Assembly: GCF_002754315.1 (NCBI RefSeq)
Contig: NZ_PEFE01000001.1
Span: 2,666,001-2,730,000 of the forward strand
DNA length: 64,000 bases
From: Flavobacterium sp. 11
Lineage (GTDB): Bacteria > Bacteroidota > Bacteroidia > Flavobacteriales > Flavobacteriaceae
Direction: 5' to 3'
Position numbers and translations under genes: made by a program. Below, piece by piece: positions 18,833 through 37,149 of the stretch; within the stretch, counting starts at the first letter, position 1; the number at the start of each line of letters is the position of its first letter. The notes under the pieces are model-generated. The model was not told where the DNA came from. It saw only the letters and a program-made list of their open reading frames with translations, and did not search any database.

Positions 18833-19180
18833 TCATTTTACGGTGCTTAACTTACTCATATTACTGCACTCAACAGCACATTTTCGACAGGATTCCGCAC
18901 AATTTTTGCAATGCTCCATGTGTGCATGTTTTTCACATTCTTCGGCGCAAGCTGTACAAATTTCGGCGCATAATTTGCAGATTTTTTCCGTAAACTCACT
19001 TCCGCTTGCCATAGCCTGCATTGCAAATAAACAAATAGCTGCACAATCATGATCTAGTTTTATGCAACGCGCTAACATTTTTACGTCTTGCTCATTCAAG
19101 CATTCACTTTCGCAATGCGAACATTCTACTGCACATTCTGAACATGCATCGATACAATCTTTAAATTTTTGATGACTCAT
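18833..19180 (-). CDS. Four-helix-bundle copper storage protein (Csp-like)
   Basis: 115 residues with 19 cysteines spaced along helices as C-x-x-x-C or C-x-x-C (ACSECAVECSHCESEC, KICKLCAEICTACAEECE, HCKNCAESCRKCAVEC). This is the pattern of the Csp family (DUF326), which packs many Cu(I) ions inside a four-helix bundle. No signal peptide, so it is a cytosolic Csp3-like form. An in-bundle histidine segment HAHMEHC is present. It heads a short minus-strand run with the Met-rich lipoprotein, HMBD peptide and Usp genes. Confidence 0.92.
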   Translation of the reverse strand: MSHQKFKDCIDACSECAVECSHCESECLNEQDVKMLARCIKLDHDCAAICLFAMQAMASGSEFTEKICKLCAEICTACAEECEKHAHMEHCKNCAESCRKCAVECSNMSKLSTVK

Positions 19181-19385: not shown

Positions 19386-22241
19386 TTAATAATTAAAAGT
19401 AGCACCTAATCCCATTCCCATATCACTATCATAGTGTGTAGTGATTCCAAAGTTTCTTTTGACAATGTAGCGTAAACCTGCCATATATTCTTTGTCGGTA
19501 TTCCACATTAAATTCATTCGTAGTCTTTTTGAAACTGGAATGTCTTTTCGTTCAAACTGTAAACGTACATTTCCGTCGGTAAAAACTTCGGCTTGAGCGA
19601 CTATAAGCATTGGTAATGTGTAATTAACCCCTGCACTAAAAACAGCTCTGTTGTCTTTGGTATTGGTTTGCCCAAAAAGATTTCTTTCTTGATTGTCTAT
19701 TCCCACTTTTCTATATCTCCAATCAAAACCTATAAAAGGCATTAACCATTGCATTTTTCCAATGTATCTTCCAATATGAGTTTCGGTTTCATAACCGTGG
19801 TGTTCTTTGTAACCCAATCGCCATTCGGTGCCGATACTCCAACGTGTACTTTGATACATCGCTTCTCCATCGTTTCCGTTTGTAGCAAAATCATTTTCTG
19901 CCATAAAATGAAATGCTCTATCATCAGCAAACAATTTGCGTTGTGCCAATTTAGGGTTTGGGATTAATGGATTTGCAGGGGAGTTTTCATAACTAAAAAC
20001 CCTGCCCATTCCGCTCATCATGTGATATAAAATATGACAATGAAAAAACCAATCACCGCTTTCGGTGGCTGCAAATTCGAGCGTATCGGTTTCCATTGGC
20101 ATGATGTCAATGATGTTTTTCATTGGAGCGTAATCTTCTTGTCCGTTGATTACCCTAAAATCATGTCCGTGCAAGTGCATGGGATGGCGCATCATAGAAT
20201 TGTTGTGAAGTATCATGCGTACGATTTCTCCTTTTTTAATTAATATTTTATCACTTTCTGAAACTACTTTGTTATCCAGACTCCAAACATAACGATTCAT
20301 ATTTCCGGTAAGTTCAAACTTTAATTCTTTTACTGGTGCATCTTTAGGAAGGGTTGTCTTGATTGGAGCTTTCAACATGGCATAGTTCAAGGTAACGATA
20401 TCAGAAAGGGCATTGGAATCATATTGATGGTCCATACCTTCCATTTTATGGTCACCCATATTCATAGCATCTTTTTTCTCCTTGTCTGTATCCTTATCTT
20501 TCATTCCCTTTTTGTTCATGTCCATTCCATTCATTTTATCTCCTTCCATATCCATGCCTTGCATTTTATCGTCGCCTTTTCGCTTTAGTTCACCAGTTAT
20601 TTCCGGATACATAACTACGTTCATATCCATTTGGTTAAGCGACATTTGCATTCCCATATCGTCTAAATCTCCGTTCATTTTCATCATGCCGTTCATCATC
20701 TTCATCCCTTCAAAATATTTTAACTTGGGTAGCGGAGCCGTTAATTGCTTGATACCATCACCTAAATATAAGGAAGCTGATTTTGTGCGATCTTCGGATG
20801 TAACTAAAAATTCATACGCAGTTTTATCAGCAGGAATGGTAACGATAACATCGTAGGTCTCAGAAACCGCAATGATTAATCGATCTACTTCAACGGGCTC
20901 TACATCGTTACCATCGCTTGCTACAACAGTCATTTTACCTCCTGCATAAGTAAGCCAAAAATAAGTGGAGGCTCCGCCGTTTGCAATTCGTAATCGGACT
21001 TTATCGCCTGCTTTAAAATGTGAAAGTTGGCTTTCACTTTTTCCGTTTATTAAGAATTTATCGTAGTACACATCGCTCACATCCATAGCGTTCATTCGCT
21101 TCCATTCGTTATTAAGTTTGGTTTTAAAATAGCCGCTTCTTATGGCTTCTGCATAACTTTGGGTTGTTCCTTTTTTAATAGCAAACCAATCCGAAGCATT
21201 ATGCAACATTCGATGTACATTATTGGGATTCAGATCCGTCCACTCACTCAAAACTATGGGCACGGTGGGAATGTCAAGCTCTTCTCTTTTATTCATAGTA
21301 AAAGAACCGTACATTCCTATTTGTTCCTGCAATCCGGTATGGCTATGATACCAATGCGTACCGTGTTGAATAATTGGAAATTTATACAAATGGGTAGTAT
21401 GTGGTTTGATTGGCATTTGTGTAAGGTTTGGCACACCATCTTCTTTGTTGGGTAAAAACAAACCGTGCCAATGCAACGATGTTTCTTCGTTCAGCTCATT
21501 GTGCACATAAATTTCTGCGGTGTCGCCTTCTGTAAACGTTAGTGGTGGCATTGGTATTTGTCCGTTTACGGCAATGGCTCTTTTAGGTTTACCCGTGAAA
21601 TTTACAATGGTGTCCCGCACGTATAAATCGTATCGAACTGTCCTTGGCGGTGTGTTGTTTACAATTGTCTTTATGGAGCCTAAGTTTGCTTTTGGCATAT
21701 CCATTTTGCCCATCTCATGATTTTTAGGAGCCTCATTATTATCCATTTTCATATTGTCCATGTTGTCCATGTTGTCTTTCTTTTCAGAACTCTTTTTCAT
21801 GGGCATTTGCATTTCATCATGCTTCTTCACTACCGATTTCTTAACTGCTTTCGGTTTTTCCTTTACCAAAGTCATTCCGCATTTAGGGCATTTCCCTGGC
21901 TTGTCAGCGTGAATCTCGGGATGCATTGGGCAGGTGTATGTTACGGATGCCACCTTATTATTATCCGTTTTCATATTGTCCATGTCGTCCTTCTTTTTAG
22001 AAGTCTTTTTCATGGGCATTTGCATTTCATCATGCTTCTTCACCACAGTTTTTTTAACCGTTTTAGCTTTTTCCTTTATCAACGTCATTCCGCATTTAGG
22101 GCATTTCCCTGGCTTGTTAGCGTGAATTTCGGGATGCATTGGGCAGGTGTATGTTGTGGGCTGCACCTTTTGCGCCTTTTCTTTTTTTGACATATCCATA
22201 CCTTTCATATCCTGTGCTTGGGCAAAGGAATTAATAGACAT
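19386..22241 (-). CDS. CopA-type multicopper oxidase with N-terminal HMBD pair and C-terminal outer-membrane-like domain
   Basis: 951 residues from ATG 22241. Two nearly identical HMBD units (about 29-57 and 101-129; CPMHPEI…KCPKCGM) are joined by K/M-rich linkers. Cupredoxin domains follow with the four copper motifs HWHGL, HWYHSH, HPMHLHGHDF and HCHILYHMMSGM. A Met-rich insert (about 520-620) lies between domains. The last 200 residues resemble a CopB-like barrel (WRLGYKEHHGY, NYTLPMLIVAQ). It oxidises Cu(I) in the periplasm. Oddity: only a stub of signal peptide is encoded from 22241. A full one (M-K-K-I-I-V-L-I-F-I-M-S…) would be encoded from ATG 22270 if the A6 run (T6 at 22262-22267 on the plus strand) had one more base. 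As written, that ATG stops after four codons. Confidence 0.92.
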   Translation of the reverse strand: MSINSFAQAQDMKGMDMSKKEKAQKVQPTTYTCPMHPEIHANKPGKCPKCGMTLIKEKAKTVKKTVVKKHDEMQMPMKKTSKKKDDMDNMKTDNNKVASVTYTCPMHPEIHADKPGKCPKCGMTLVKEKPKAVKKSVVKKHDEMQMPMKKSSEKKDNMDNMDNMKMDNNEAPKNHEMGKMDMPKANLGSIKTIVNNTPPRTVRYDLYVRDTIVNFTGKPKRAIAVNGQIPMPPLTFTEGDTAEIYVHNELNEETSLHWHGLFLPNKEDGVPNLTQMPIKPHTTHLYKFPIIQHGTHWYHSHTGLQEQIGMYGSFTMNKREELDIPTVPIVLSEWTDLNPNNVHRMLHNASDWFAIKKGTTQSYAEAIRSGYFKTKLNNEWKRMNAMDVSDVYYDKFLINGKSESQLSHFKAGDKVRLRIANGGASTYFWLTYAGGKMTVVASDGNDVEPVEVDRLIIAVSETYDVIVTIPADKTAYEFLVTSEDRTKSASLYLGDGIKQLTAPLPKLKYFEGMKMMNGMMKMNGDLDDMGMQMSLNQMDMNVVMYPEITGELKRKGDDKMQGMDMEGDKMNGMDMNKKGMKDKDTDKEKKDAMNMGDHKMEGMDHQYDSNALSDIVTLNYAMLKAPIKTTLPKDAPVKELKFELTGNMNRYVWSLDNKVVSESDKILIKKGEIVRMILHNNSMMRHPMHLHGHDFRVINGQEDYAPMKNIIDIMPMETDTLEFAATESGDWFFHCHILYHMMSGMGRVFSYENSPANPLIPNPKLAQRKLFADDRAFHFMAENDFATNGNDGEAMYQSTRWSIGTEWRLGYKEHHGYETETHIGRYIGKMQWLMPFIGFDWRYRKVGIDNQERNLFGQTNTKDNRAVFSAGVNYTLPMLIVAQAEVFTDGNVRLQFERKDIPVSKRLRMNLMWNTDKEYMAGLRYIVKRNFGITTHYDSDMGMGLGATFNY

Positions 22242-22308
22242 AATGAATATTAATACTATAATTTTTTCATTTTTTTAGTTTAAAATTAATTTACTAATTC
22301 TTATGGAA

Positions 22309-22800
22309 TTATTTGTCTAATTCTTTGAGCTTTGCTTTCATCTGGTCAATCTCTGCCTGTTGGCTGGTAATGATATTTTTAATTAATTCCTTTATTTCAG
22401 GGTCGGTAACCGATGACTCTTTACCCATTAATATTGCTGCAGCATGGTGTGGTATCATTGATTTTAAAAATTCTTTATCTCCAACCGCTGCCTGTTGCCT
22501 AATGCCTGCAAAAAATAGAATCAAAGCAATAAATCCAGTGACAACCAGTGAAATATTTAATTTCTTATTTCCGTACATGCTACCCATCACTAGAAGTTCA
22601 ATTATGAGCATCGGCATGGTCATCAGTCCAGCCATGTAAAATTGGTTTATATTGGGTATTACATTGGCAAAAACATCTACCATTGCATACATTAGTATGT
22701 ACATAGCTATAAATGATAACACTATCATAATCGCTAATTTCTTGTAAATAGTCAAACTTAATTCTTTTGAATGCTCTTCTGTTGTGTGTTTCATTGCCAT
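22309..22800 (-). CDS. DUF305 membrane protein
   Basis: 163 residues. Three or four hydrophobic segments (about 22-45, 55-75, 80-100) precede a short C-terminal DUF305 region with the hallmark MIPHHAAAILMGKE (about 114-127) and a charged final helix. DUF305 proteins recur in copper and silver islands and probably bind metal through the HH motif. The start ATG at 22800 leaves 23 bp to the upstream DUF2911 gene. It lies next to the multicopper oxidase gene, in the same operon. Confidence 0.88.
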   Translation of the reverse strand: MAMKHTTEEHSKELSLTIYKKLAIMIVLSFIAMYILMYAMVDVFANVIPNINQFYMAGLMTMPMLIIELLVMGSMYGNKKLNISLVVTGFIALILFFAGIRQQAAVGDKEFLKSMIPHHAAAILMGKESSVTDPEIKELIKNIITSQQAEIDQMKAKLKELDK

Positions 22801-22822
22801 AATTTTTTGATTTAAAATTAAT

Positions 22823-23692
22823 TTATTTTTTTAATAGTAACTCCAACTCTAAAATTTGTTTTTTAAGTGATTCAACACTTTTCATTTTTTTTAATTCTGC
22901 TATTGATAAAGCTTTTTTACCTGCTTCAATTGCACTTGGATAGTCTTTTAGTTCCGTTGCTATTTTTTGTCTCAAATTAGGATAGTAAAAATTTTGTGGA
23001 TCTAATTTTTCGGCTTCAATAAGCCAAGCTATTGCTTGTTTGGAATCTCTGTTTGTACTGTAATAATAGTTTGCTGCTTGAAATAATAAATTAGCATCTT
23101 GAGTTTTTTCTTTAATGATGTTTTTATCTATTACTGCTAAAATATTTTCATCTGCTTTGCTTTTCAATGGAATTTTCACCATCGAATTTTCCCATATTAT
23201 TTTTAGAAATCCCTCCCCTTTACTGTTAACATCATTTATTTCGATTGTAAATGTTTCATATAAATTGGGTATGCTTTCTACTGGAACTGTAAAACGAAAA
23301 ACATCTTTTTTGGCATCGTATCCGGTTTCTCCATGTAATGTAGTATCTGTATTTACAATTATTGTCCACTCCTTTTTAGAAGGTATTGTGAATATTGAGT
23401 AACTACCCATTTTTAAAGTAGTATTTCCAAATACAATATCTTCGTTGGTAGTTATTGAAGTACAATCACTAGCGCCAGTTCGCCAGAGTTTTTCAAAAGG
23501 TACTAATTCACCAAATATTTTTCTGCCTCTTGCTAGTGGTCTGCTGTAAGAAACTTTGATTATTGTGCTACCCAATTCTTGTTCAAATGATGCAGATGGA
23601 CTTGCAGAAGTTAGTTTTATTTGAACTTTTTCTTGTGCCGAAATTATTAAAGCTTGTAAAATAAAGAAGTGTATTAGAATTATTTTTTTCAT
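22823..23692 (-). CDS. DUF2911 secreted protein
   Basis: 289 residues. The signal peptide (MKKIILIHFFILQALIISAQ) is followed by the DUF2911 domain (about 25-180), recognised by SYSRPLARGRKIFGELVP, LWRTGASDCT and GSYSIFTIP. The C-terminal third is TPR-like (AANYYYSTNRDSKQAIAWL). It is periplasmic and of unknown function; it is common in Bacteroidota. Its place inside a copper operon is less usual. The 5' untranslated stretch is made of four and a half 11-bp tandem repeats. Confidence 0.88.
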   Translation of the reverse strand: MKKIILIHFFILQALIISAQEKVQIKLTSASPSASFEQELGSTIIKVSYSRPLARGRKIFGELVPFEKLWRTGASDCTSITTNEDIVFGNTTLKMGSYSIFTIPSKKEWTIIVNTDTTLHGETGYDAKKDVFRFTVPVESIPNLYETFTIEINDVNSKGEGFLKIIWENSMVKIPLKSKADENILAVIDKNIIKEKTQDANLLFQAANYYYSTNRDSKQAIAWLIEAEKLDPQNFYYPNLRQKIATELKDYPSAIEAGKKALSIAELKKMKSVESLKKQILELELLLKK

Positions 23693-23699
23693 GGTTTTT

Positions 23700-23750
23700 G
23701 ATTTTAAATTGATTTTAAATTGATTTTAAATTGATTTTAAATTGATTTTA
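23700..23750. repeat. 11-bp tandem repeat (GATTTTAAATT, about 4.6 copies)
   Basis: Copies at 23700, 23711, 23722 and 23733, plus a partial copy at 23744. They fill the gap between the PepSY gene end (23771) and the DUF2911 start (23692), just upstream of the latter's ATG. Single copies of similar sequence precede other genes of this operon, so this looks like an expansion of the leader sequence. Confidence 0.9.
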
Positions 23751-32676: not shown

Positions 32677-33930
32677 TTATTTGATTTCTAGTTGTTTTTC
32701 GATTTCTACTTGTGTGCTTAAAATATTTTGCAATTTATCCAGAGCATCAATTTGTGCCATATTTAACGCTTCCCAAGCATCCAATACTACAAATAAATCT
32801 CCCGTATTATTCTGCCAAGCCAATATTGCAGTATCATAGTTTCGTTTTAAGGCAGGAATGATATTTTTTTCAGCAATATCATATTGTTTTTTTAGGTTTA
32901 TCAATTCTGTATTCATACCCGAAATCATTCCTGCTGCTTCATTCAAAATCATTTGCTTTTGCCAGTTGAGACCTTCATTCTTGATTTTAAAACTGTTGAT
33001 ATTGGCTTTATTCATTTTTGTTGACCAAGGCATGGGAATAGTAATCATTCCCATTAAAGAGAATTGTTTTGGCTGTTCTCCAAAGGCAAACATATGGTCA
33101 TATTTGACACCAAATTCTGGTAATAATTTTGCTTTTTCGGTTTCAATTTTTAATTGATTTAATACCATTGTTTTTTCAATAGCTTTAACATCACTTCGGT
33201 TTTGGGAAAGTGAGGTTGTATCTGCTTTTATGGTATCAAAATCATTTAATTTATAGGTTTCATCTATTTCAAACAAAGTGTTTTTATCTCTAGCCATCAA
33301 GGTATTTAGCATAATTCGCTTCTGGGAAATATCGTTTTGTAACATTACAATCATACTTTGTAATGCACCGTATTGCGATTTTGCTTTGTAATAGGTTGGC
33401 AATTTATCCATATTATACTGATAGCGTATTTCCATACTTTTTATCATATAGTCTAAGAGCAATAAATTATCATCCGCAATTTTTATTTTTTTATTTAATA
33501 CCAGCCATTGGTAATAATTCGTTTTTGCCAGTGCCTTTAATTGATTAATTGTATAACCTTTATTCTCTTTTTCAACAGATGACATTGCATTCATGTAATT
33601 GAAATCAGACTTAAGTTTTCTAGCATTCGGTATCATTTGTGTAACACCAACCATGTAAGATCCCATACCAGGCCCCATTTCATCGGCTTTCCATAATTTA
33701 CTATTGTAAGGCGTCATAAAAAAACCCGTTTCCACTTGCGGAGGCATCCAACTTTTTGCTCCTTTTGCTGCTGCATCCATACTTTGAATATCAGCATCAT
33801 ACATTTTTAGTTGTGGATTATTTGTTTTGATATTCGTCAAAACAGCATCCAACGAAAGTGTTTGCGCCGCCATATTAGCAGTACTTAAAATCAAACAGCT
33901 TATTGCGATATAACAGTTATTCTTTAACAT
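32677..33930 (-). CDS. cusC: TolC-family outer-membrane channel (CusC-like)
   Basis: 417 residues. A signal peptide ends near MAAQ-TLSL, then two TolC repeats of long helices with barrel strands (TLSLDAVLTNIKTNNPQLKM opens the first repeat; …WEALNMAQIDALDKLQ closes the second). It is the outer-membrane exit duct of the Cus-like pump. Its start overlaps the end of the pump's second half-gene by 14 bp (33917-33930), and it runs 2 bp before the adaptor gene. Confidence 0.92.
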   Translation of the reverse strand: MLKNNCYIAISCLILSTANMAAQTLSLDAVLTNIKTNNPQLKMYDADIQSMDAAAKGAKSWMPPQVETGFFMTPYNSKLWKADEMGPGMGSYMVGVTQMIPNARKLKSDFNYMNAMSSVEKENKGYTINQLKALAKTNYYQWLVLNKKIKIADDNLLLLDYMIKSMEIRYQYNMDKLPTYYKAKSQYGALQSMIVMLQNDISQKRIMLNTLMARDKNTLFEIDETYKLNDFDTIKADTTSLSQNRSDVKAIEKTMVLNQLKIETEKAKLLPEFGVKYDHMFAFGEQPKQFSLMGMITIPMPWSTKMNKANINSFKIKNEGLNWQKQMILNEAAGMISGMNTELINLKKQYDIAEKNIIPALKRNYDTAILAWQNNTGDLFVVLDAWEALNMAQIDALDKLQNILSTQVEIEKQLEIK

Positions 33931-35854
33931 CTATAAGTTCTATTTTGCCTTTTGTTTTTAATTCTCGAAGTTTTACCATCTCAAAAACTATAGGAGTTAC
34001 TAATAATACATAAATTGTTGAGGTAATTGTACCCCCAATGAGTGGAACCGTAATTGGCAACATCACATCGGCTCCAGTTCCTGTTGCCCAAAGGATAGGG
34101 ATTAATCCAAATAGGGAAACGGAAACGGTCATCAATTTTGGTCTTAATCTTTTGGCAGAACCGTCAATAATGTACTGTTTCAAAATTGCTTCTGTGATTG
34201 TTGCTGCACTGTTCCCGTGTTTTTCTACCATTTTGTTCATCGCTTCATTCAAATAAATAGTCATTAACATAGCGGTTTCGATTGCCATTCCAAACAATGC
34301 TATAAAACCAACTGCAACGGCTACGGATAAATTTATTCCATAAAAATAGACCATAAAAATTCCTCCAATCAAAGCAAACGGTACGGTTATCATTGTAATC
34401 AGTGCTTCTTTCATAGAATGATAGGTGAAGTACAGAATGAGGAAAATAATGATGACAACTATAGGTAAAATCATGCTTAATGTTTTATTGGCTCTGATTT
34501 GGTTTTCCCATTGTCCGCTCCACTCCACATAATAGCCTTTTGGCATTTTAGTGATCATTGCATTCAATTTTTTTTGCGCTTCTTTTACCGTACTTCCTAG
34601 ATCACGCTCTCGCACATTAAACAGGACACTGCCTCGTAGCATTGCATTTTCGCTATTTATCATTGGAGGACCATCGCTTATTTTTACATCGGCAACGGCT
34701 TCTAATGGAATAGGACCAAACTCCATTGTTTGCACTTGGAGTTTTTTTAATGCCTCAATACTATTTCTGTATTCTTGAGCATATCTTGCATTTACAGAAA
34801 ATCGTTGTCTTCCCTCAATGGTTGTAGTAAGTTTCATTCCACCAATAGACGCTTCTACCACATTGTTTATATCATCTATTGTAAGTCCGTATCTGCCAAT
34901 GGCCTCTCTTTTTGCCTCGATATCGATGTACTTTCCGCCAGTAATCGGTTCCGCATATAAATCTTTTACGCCAGAAGTACCTTCAAGGGCTTTTTTTATT
35001 TTTTGAGATAAAACATTGATAGTGTCTAAGCTTGCTCCGTAAATCTTTATTCCTACATCGGTTCTAATACCAGTAGAAAGCATATTAATCCTATTAATGA
35101 TGGGCTGTGTAAAACCATTCGTAACTCCTGGAATTTGAAGTTTATTATTTATTTCATTAACAATATCGGCTTTCGTTTTGTCTTCTCTCCATTCGTTTTG
35201 GGGTTTCAGCAAAACAATAGATTCAATCATGCTAATTGGACTATTATCGGTAGCAGTATTAGCCCTTCCTGCTTTTCCCAATACGTGTGCTACTTCGGGT
35301 ATCGATTTTATCAATTTGTCTTGCACTTGTAAAATTCGTTTCACTTCAGAATTGGATACATCTGGCAATGTTACAGGCATAAAAAGCACGGAACCTTCAT
35401 CTAAAGGTGGCATAAATTCTGTCCCTAAACGGGTAAACATTAAAACGCCAATCAGGAGCGCAATTATATTAATACCTAATACTGTTTTCCTCCATTTTAA
35501 ACAAAAAATTAAAATAGGAGTATATATGCTTTCCAGTTTTTTATTAATTGGATTTTTGTTTTCTGGACGAAGTTTACCTTTAAGCAGAAAACTAATTAGA
35601 ACTGGAGTAAGTGTAATGGCTAAAAAAGCATCTACTATAAGTATAAACGATTTTGTCCAAGCCAATGGGCTGAATAATTTACCTTCCATACCTGTGAGAA
35701 GAAATACAGGTAAAAAAGATGCTATTACAATGAGTGTTGAATAAAAAACACCTGGGCCAACTAATTTCGAAGAACTTTCTATAAGTTGTAATTTTTCTTC
35801 AGAAGATAACGGGTCGTGTTCTTTTTTGAATATATTTTTTATTTTGTCTTTCAT
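33917..35854 (-). CDS. cusA: CusA-type RND pump, C-terminal part (split gene)
   Basis: 645 residues corresponding to the pump from just after TM4 to the end: SSKLVGPGVFYSTLIVIASF, the second large periplasmic loop (EFMPPLDEGSVLFMP) and TM7-12 (FMVYFYGINLSVAVAVGFIALFGMA…). The start ATG overlaps the stop of the N-terminal gene (ATGA at 35851-35854). Together the two make about 1077 residues, the size of a complete CusA. The break lies in a variable cytosolic loop. One extra A in the A4 run just before the stop would fuse both frames. It is either a true two-subunit pump, an error, or a slippage-linked pair. Confidence 0.92.
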   Translation of the reverse strand: MKDKIKNIFKKEHDPLSSEEKLQLIESSSKLVGPGVFYSTLIVIASFLPVFLLTGMEGKLFSPLAWTKSFILIVDAFLAITLTPVLISFLLKGKLRPENKNPINKKLESIYTPILIFCLKWRKTVLGINIIALLIGVLMFTRLGTEFMPPLDEGSVLFMPVTLPDVSNSEVKRILQVQDKLIKSIPEVAHVLGKAGRANTATDNSPISMIESIVLLKPQNEWREDKTKADIVNEINNKLQIPGVTNGFTQPIINRINMLSTGIRTDVGIKIYGASLDTINVLSQKIKKALEGTSGVKDLYAEPITGGKYIDIEAKREAIGRYGLTIDDINNVVEASIGGMKLTTTIEGRQRFSVNARYAQEYRNSIEALKKLQVQTMEFGPIPLEAVADVKISDGPPMINSENAMLRGSVLFNVRERDLGSTVKEAQKKLNAMITKMPKGYYVEWSGQWENQIRANKTLSMILPIVVIIIFLILYFTYHSMKEALITMITVPFALIGGIFMVYFYGINLSVAVAVGFIALFGMAIETAMLMTIYLNEAMNKMVEKHGNSAATITEAILKQYIIDGSAKRLRPKLMTVSVSLFGLIPILWATGTGADVMLPITVPLIGGTITSTIYVLLVTPIVFEMVKLRELKTKGKIELIDVKE

Positions 35855-37149
35855 TTTATTTCCGAATTATTTTGATTACTCTCCATCTCTTCCTGTTTCT
35901 CCGAAATTGTCCTATACGCATTTTCCACCATTACAATTCCGTCATCGACGACAACACCTATAGCTAATGCAATACCCGTTAATGACATGATATTAGATGA
36001 TATACCAAATGCTTCAAGCAAAATAAAGCCAATGGCCACAGATATAGGCAATTGTATTAAGATAATTAAAGCACTTCGCCAATGAAAAAGAAAAAGTAGT
36101 ATGACAATTGAAACAACAATCATTTCTTCTATTAAAGTTCCTTTAACAGATGCGATTGCATTTTCTATCAATTCACTTCGGTCATAAGACGTTTTAAAAG
36201 AAACGCCTTCAGGCAATCCTTTTTCAACTTCTTTCATTTTTTCTTTTACTGCTTTTATAACTTTATCTGCATTTTCACCATAACGCATGACTACAATTCC
36301 TCCTACAACTTCACCTGTTCCATTTTCATCAAAAATTCCCAAGCGTAAATCTCCACCCATTTGTATCGAACCAATGTCTTTTACCTTTACTGGAACGGAA
36401 TTATAATTTTTAATAGCAATATCTTCTACATCTTTTATGTTTTTTATGTACCCTAAACCTCTTACTATGTAAGACATATTACTCATCTCAAATTTTCGAC
36501 CACCAACATCATTGTTATTTGCTTTGACTGCATTCATCACTTCCATCATACTCACATTATAGTACTGCATTTTCAAGGGATCTAGCACTAATTGGTACTG
36601 TTTTTCAAAACCACCAAATGATGCTACTTCAGCCACGCCAGGAACAGTTTGTAATGCAAATTTCACGTACCAATCTTGTAAAGCTCTTTGTTCTCCCAAG
36701 TCCATACCGTTAGCCTCTAAATGATACCAAAAGACGTGACCAACTCCAGTTCCATCTGGGCCTAATGTCGGCACTACGTTTTGAGGTAGTAATCGTTGGG
36801 CATAATTTAATCTTTCCAATACACGAGTTCTTGCCCAATAGACATCTACATCATCTTCAAAAATGATATATACAAAGCTCATCCCAAACATAGATGCACC
36901 ACGAATATTTTTGACTTTTGGTATACCTTGTAGGTTAGAGACCAAAGGATAGGTTACTTGTGCTTCTATAACCTGCGGGCTTCTTCCCATCCATTCCGTG
37001 AAGACAATGACTTGATTTTCGGATAAATCTGGAATGGCATCTATAGGATTTTGTTGCACGCTATAAATACCCCAAGCTAATAAGCAAGCTGAGACGAGAA
37101 GAACAACAAATCTATTTTTTAGTGAAAATGATATTAATTTTTCTACCAT
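35851..37149 (-). CDS. cusA: CusA-type RND pump, N-terminal part (split gene)
   Basis: 432 residues: TM1, the first periplasmic loop (PDLSENQVIVFTEWMGRSPQ), then TM2-4 with the proton-relay/typing motif AIGVVVDDGIVMVENAY. This is of the copper/silver (HME4-like) type rather than the DFG…DGA type of Zn/Co pumps. It ends in a hydrophilic tail rich in E, N and Q. See the C-terminal partner for the split. Upstream lies a haem-binding protein gene, 5 bp away. Confidence 0.93.
   Translation of the reverse strand: MVEKLISFSLKNRFVVLLVSACLLAWGIYSVQQNPIDAIPDLSENQVIVFTEWMGRSPQVIEAQVTYPLVSNLQGIPKVKNIRGASMFGMSFVYIIFEDDVDVYWARTRVLERLNYAQRLLPQNVVPTLGPDGTGVGHVFWYHLEANGMDLGEQRALQDWYVKFALQTVPGVAEVASFGGFEKQYQLVLDPLKMQYYNVSMMEVMNAVKANNNDVGGRKFEMSNMSYIVRGLGYIKNIKDVEDIAIKNYNSVPVKVKDIGSIQMGGDLRLGIFDENGTGEVVGGIVVMRYGENADKVIKAVKEKMKEVEKGLPEGVSFKTSYDRSELIENAIASVKGTLIEEMIVVSIVILLFLFHWRSALIILIQLPISVAIGFILLEAFGISSNIMSLTGIALAIGVVVDDGIVMVENAYRTISEKQEEMESNQNNSEIK

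Follow-up and report, generated by a model that had tools for sequence, protein, structure and literature searches.

A probable one-base deletion directly after the start codon of a multicopper oxidase–barrel gene in Flavobacterium sp. 11 suggests recent silencing of a redundant copy

Results

The oxidase gene and its reading frame

The window analyzed here is a stretch of 64,000 nucleotides from Flavobacterium sp. 11 (contig NZ_PEFE01000001.1; the genome is a single contig of 3.76 Mb), and it carries on its minus strand a multicopper oxidase gene flanked by a DUF305 gene and a DUF326 gene (Table 1). Read directly from 22270, the minus strand gives ATG AAA AAA TTA TAG (M-K-K-L-stop), the start codon being followed by AAAAAATTATAG with exactly six As immediately after the ATG, which confirms the statement of the earlier note that translation from this codon would yield MKK and then a stop after four codons. 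The residues that the note had assigned to a signal peptide (KIIVLIFIM, then SINSFAQAQ) are likewise found in the oxidase frame, where they include its hydrophobic core. The frame of the oxidase, which ends at 19386, runs without a stop up to 22274 (962 codons), and between the TAA that closes it upstream and the ATG at 22241 it contains no ATG, GTG or TTG; ATG 22241 is the first usual start left to the oxidase, as had been proposed. With the frame as read, the normal signal peptide is lost, and the window allele has no usual in-frame start from which signal-peptide export of the CopA/PcoA kind could proceed.

Table 1. Features of the oxidase locus, in positions of the window
Feature	Position	Strand	Basis or remark
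Upstream DUF305 gene; its stop lies 38 bases from the old oxidase start	22309..22800	-	Domain search
In-frame TAA closing the oxidase frame upstream	22275..22277	-	Frame open from 22274
Ancestral start codon and abortive ORF (M-K-K-L-stop)	22256..22270	-	Aligned to the intact starts of relatives
A6 run	22262..22267	-	A7 in G007, G031/L040, G243, L041 and L050; A6 also in G393
Signal-peptide-coding stretch (KIIVLIFIMSINSFAQA) in the oxidase frame, cut off from the start	22215..22265	-	Continuous with the start where relatives are intact
Multicopper oxidase ORF from the internal ATG, 951 codons	19386..22241	-	ORF and domain search
First HMBD motif, limits approximate	22071..22151	-	Pfam PF19335 (two stretches); limits from the translation
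Second HMBD motif (residues 102-127)	21861..21938	-	Pfam PF19335
Cu-oxidase_3, Cu-oxidase and Cu-oxidase_2 (residues 210-752)	19986..21614	-	Domain search
C-terminal domain, predicted 12-strand outer-membrane beta-barrel, PcoB-like	19389..20009	-	Structure prediction and structure search
Downstream DUF326 gene	18833..19180	-	Domain search

An oxidase fused to a predicted outer-membrane barrel

The protein is a multicopper oxidase, with PF07732, PF00394 and PF07731 all matching above cut-off, and its best named matches belong to Flavobacterium. Its translation contains the motifs HWHG, HWYHSH, HPMHLHGH and HCHILYHMMSGM, which we take to be the copper ligands. It resembles the copper-resistance oxidase CopA/PcoA (TIGR01480) in having three Cu-oxidase domains and in matching that family over residues 200-748 (E 4.8e-117), but its score of 391.9 bits falls below the curated cut-off of 478.95, and it differs further in its N-terminal heavy-metal-binding (HMBD) motifs, its fused C-terminal barrel and its cut-off signal peptide; it appears to work like a CopA, though it is not filed as one. 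The number of HMBD repeats varies among relatives: by a simple motif count there are two in the window, G201 and G323, and at most one in each of the other full-length relatives.

The last 207 residues are predicted to form the barrel (model pLDDT 83.8, 12 strands), the outer-membrane beta-barrel fold being assigned from the predicted model only. The best match among solved structures is the outer-membrane copper protein PcoB (7pge; Z 14.3, rmsd 3.3, 156 aligned), which Foldseek also ranked first (E 3.0e-4), although OMPLA, Tsx, VhGalP, KdgM and NanC tie with it within 1 Z. Of 73 other distinct full domains, 43 (sharing 55 to 95% identity with that of the window) were aligned with the window sequence, and all 44 carry the predicted oxidase–barrel fusion. 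In two proteobacterial plasmids where both genes are present, copB lies directly after copA; in a third record, copA lies at the record edge and no copB is shown. Membership of the barrel in the CopB family was rejected: PF05275 gave no hit for the C-terminal domain (E ≤5), for the 44 aligned members (E ≤1) or in 61 Flavobacterium genomes, and hhalign against an alignment of just two CopB proteins, a thin profile, returned a probability of 2%. From the model, the protein looks like an oxidase fused to its outer-membrane partner, and a predicted outer-membrane barrel implies that the protein needs export. The product from ATG 22241, which begins MSINSFAQAQDMKG, has no hydrophobic stretch, and loss of the signal peptide should, if the model is right, disable both the oxidase and the barrel parts.

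Elsewhere in the window, a CusA-like RND pump is encoded in two pieces, the ORFs 33917-35854 and 35851-37149, which overlap by ATGA; six other copies in five genomes, compared by their C-terminal halves alone, have such a half (open frame 648-669, 89-100% identity).

The start region in relatives

When 301 bases spanning the start were used to query 398 Flavobacterium genomes, 280 gave some match at E ≤0.001, mostly a short one. The resulting alignment comprised 22 loci, 18 from the genome search (including the window's own) and four named protein-search records. The close set within it consists of the distinct records that reach at least 90% identity across 190 bases or more, with G031 = L040 and G323 = L038 each counted once. 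The start and signal peptide are intact in seven of the nine close records other than the window (MKKIIVLIFIMSIYSFAHAQ and variants), either with seven As (G007, G031, G243, L041 and L050) or with other codons (G201 and G323). The remaining two are broken, so that counting the window, three of ten starts are damaged: G393 carries the same six-A allele as the window, and G260 has its start ATG deleted. Both of these copies have decayed further, that of G393 being a pseudogene with multiple frameshifts and multiple stops and that of G260 containing many of each. The next nearest relative beyond the close set, G228 (84%), has an intact start. In place of the A run, intact relatives have AAAAGAATA, AGAAAAATT or AGAAGAATA, codons other than the run being found at the tract site in G201, G323, G257 and G315. 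Relative to these intact orthologues, the window copy is disrupted.

Among the best 80 of 589 protein relatives, a sample biased towards intact genes, an in-frame start and a signal-peptide-like stretch were present at all 80 loci. A crude hydropathy rule passed 79 of them, including six at an internal Met; these six and the sole failure (L107, which has unknown residues) were checked by eye, so that 73 loci were scored by the rule and seven by inspection. Given that seven of the nine close records are intact, the comparison indicates that the in-frame signal-peptide stretch is more than chance. A pattern search for the A6 allele with up to two mismatches in 397 genomes (three Flavobacterium, G393 not among them) returned only the window's own and so adds little, and a plasmid collection gave no near match to the query, the distant matches covering at most 47% of it (among the 10 of 21 matches listed).

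Selection and history of the gene

The body of the oxidase is intact, with 951 codons open. Its dN/dS is 0.067 against G201 over 676 codons and 0.222 against the dead G260 copy, and the window branch carries 45 synonymous and 15 non-synonymous changes, with 28 unassigned. These values indicate that the body has evolved under purifying selection, and neither further lesions nor relaxed selection of the kind expected in an older pseudogene were found. As strong constraint is combined with the lack of any other lesion, either the loss is very young, or it is an error, or the gene is somehow still working; if the copy is a pseudogene, then it is a very young one.

The gene is also a mosaic (19386-22800), with a G201-like body, a 5' end that is partly G393-like and G007-like flanks. 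The flanks, below ~19800 and from ~22750 to 23700 (the end of the comparison), are 99 to 100% identical to G007, and G201 is closest to the body (~22152 to 19880) over most of its length; a tree of 20750-19880 places the window beside G260, with a support of only 0.48. Over 22525-22268, the window and G393 have in common the A6 and two SNPs (22491 and 22486) that set them apart from G260, G007, G243, L050 and G228; G201 and G323 are not alignable there, the G323 row nonetheless showing the same letter (G) at 22486. At the adjacent sites 22306 and 22305, G393 groups with G260 against the window, and a tree of 22700-22260 places G393 with G228, apart from the window. The A6 may have come along with a 5' segment acquired by recombination, or it may have arisen twice; judged from these sites, the case for common descent of the two A6 alleles is weak.

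A second oxidase copy in the genome

A second oxidase copy is present in the same genome (C1:1489515-1491746), with its own intact signal peptide (beginning MKKYSIIIILLFALNAAAQ). The G393 and G260 genomes, in which the island copy has decayed, each contain another intact copy as well. Single matches (E ≤1e-20) were obtained in G029, G228 and G315, all intact; three such genomes are too few for a test. We infer that redundancy is the reason the loss of the signal peptide is tolerated, since a second, intact and exported copy is available.

Is the deletion real?

The main rival to a real deletion is an assembly or base-calling error, in which one A of an A7 was missed and the gene of the strain is in fact intact. 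The earlier note had raised a sequencing error as one of its two explanations, and it survives here in weakened form, as an unlikely but serious alternative. Its appeal is that a single base is missing from a homopolymer, within a gene that is otherwise intact and constrained. In a comparison with G007:C27, ~36 kb of the window aligned as three blocks (9289, 7541 and 19259 columns; identity 95.5 to 98.8%); the stretch at ~20415-21956, the divergent middle of the oxidase gene, lies between two of the blocks and outside the comparison. Within the blocks, no indel other than that at the A6 site leaves a gene out of frame: the rest fall between genes or at the ends of ORFs, come in threes or are compensated close by. 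G007 contains 166 A/T runs of at least six there; four of these carry an indel, and only the A6 site breaks a gene, which argues against frequent miscalling of such runs. A separate difference from G007, at ~41862, is a 26-base insertion that repeats a 13-base unit outside the listed ORFs.

A wider survey of frame breaks was made against G007:C1 (400 kb), covering 53 genes at first and, with more of the strain's own sequence, 183 by tblastn and 197 by blastn; the 197-gene comparison spans ~200 kb with a 78% identity limit, below which the oxidase and its G007 counterpart fall, so that the oxidase itself is uncounted. When G007 ORFs were compared with the strain's own genome, nine entries were listed and one was a clear internal break, at ~1007051 of its own C1 (locus L271, outside the window), where a T run has lost one base; the affected gene is an intact 931-residue ORF in G007. 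Six of the nine are called ORFs that extend upstream of a conserved start intact in both genomes, and in the remaining two (C1 230944 and C27 39420) the alignment is gapped and lies in a poor stretch or close to where an ORF ends. The reverse comparison of the same 197 genes gave seven entries (the ~1007051 break again, three upstream extensions with intact conserved starts and three near ORF ends) and no clear internal break in G007. The loss at ~1007051, a second one-base loss in a homopolymer, favors an error in the assembly, yet it is the only clear internal break of the strain's own among the 197 genes; such errors are therefore not widespread in the assembly, although a few may exist. 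The strongest point on the other side is that an independent genome of a second species, G393, carries the same A6, which is the best sequence-level evidence that the allele of the window is real.

Could the allele still be expressed or switched?

It is also conceivable, but improbable, that the gene remains in use, with some protein, either exported or left in the cytoplasm, being made by reinitiation at ATG 22241, from a rare AUU start at 22262 or by slippage on the As (a low-level minus-one ribosome slip or an extra-base polymerase slip). Continued use would account for the purifying selection on the body, but both relatives with a lost start have decayed. For reinitiation, ATG 22241 is placed just 14 bases past the TAG and has an A at -3, one of the positions (-3, -6, -12 and -13) at which adenines favor initiation in F. 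johnsoniae according to PMC6847099. Its upstream context is otherwise poor, with a score of -1.58 that is exceeded by 43 of the 44 window starts from which the scoring matrix itself was derived, compared with 4.11 for ATG 22270, which is not among the 44 matrix starts; its predicted accessibility is lower (0.354 against 0.564), and the codon is missing in G323, G228 and G257.

For slippage, a one-base slip on the As would restore the signal peptide to frame, much as in the slippage rescue at poly(A) runs known from bacterial IS elements and other genes, where a frame broken at an A run is rejoined by a slipping polymerase. The run here, however, is of six with only two AAA codons, below the lengths given in PMC1088944 and PMC6260861. 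E. coli RNA polymerase is described as showing no detectable slippage until a run reaches eight As (PMC6260861), and in many genomes slippery runs are visibly selected against at nine, with the proviso that some bacteria may slip on shorter ones (PMC1088944). A tract of six thus falls short of the approximately eight or more As that such rescue would call for, with thresholds measured in other bacteria; RNA-polymerase slippage was rejected on the E. coli data, and rescue by slippage of any kind is unlikely but not impossible.

A variant, for which we see little likelihood, would have the out-of-frame leader itself in use: infrequent slippage, or reinitiation once the four-codon peptide is made, would yield a little exported or cytoplasmic oxidase–barrel protein, and recombination may have spread the allele between species. 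If true, it would explain a constrained body despite a broken start.

The second explanation of the earlier note, a contingency locus in which the tract alternates between six and seven As to turn export off and on, fares worst and is very improbable: both forms do exist among related genomes, but these two lengths are the only ones seen, contingency tracts are usually longer, runs of at least seven A/T are common (53 in the ~36 kb of aligned relative DNA), other codons replace the run in intact relatives, and the other A6 allele sits in a dead gene. Phase variation was rejected as unlikely, the tract being short, common and not conserved.

Discussion

The best reading of the locus is a real and recent one-base deletion that silences a redundant oxidase–barrel copy, which we regard as probable. 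One A would have been lost from an A7 directly after the start codon, placing the start and the signal peptide of the island copy out of frame. A ribosome starting at 22270 would then produce a four-residue peptide and stop, and the poor internal ATG at 22241 would give at most a little signal-less protein that stays in the cytoplasm. As the predicted barrel would need export and the product from ATG 22241 lacks a signal peptide and is poorly initiated, we infer that the allele is functionally silent: the deletion would be real in the strain and recent, and the product would not be exported. The silencing would be tolerated because the genome has a second, intact and exported copy. The earlier note offered two explanations, neither of which was that a redundant copy had been inactivated, in a gene whose copies in two relatives are dead as well; most likely this is ordinary recent gene loss rather than a switch.

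The proposed loss resembles a recent frameshift pseudogene of a duplicated and exchanged metal-resistance gene in its one-base lesion, intact relatives, spare copy and decayed relatives; it differs in that the window copy is without further decay as yet. As for the comparison of the C-terminal domain with PcoB/CopB, PcoB is its best structural match and copB follows copA in two proteobacterial plasmids, but the barrel has no PF05275 match and other outer-membrane barrels tie with PcoB structurally. Literature searches returned nothing specific on a CopA–CopB fusion in Bacteroidetes, on a copper oxidase with a signal peptide and a frameshift, or on homopolymer phase variation or copper-resistance transfer in Flavobacterium, and we make no claim that these are absent from print.

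One practical consequence concerns annotation, as a tool that accepts ATG 22241 would call a normal 951-residue enzyme and miss the absent export signal. The oxidase–barrel fusion, notable in its own right, makes the consequence of losing the signal peptide clear. The locus shows what looks like early-stage gene loss in a copper-resistance island common to Flavobacterium species: of ten close copies of the gene, this one included, three have a damaged start.
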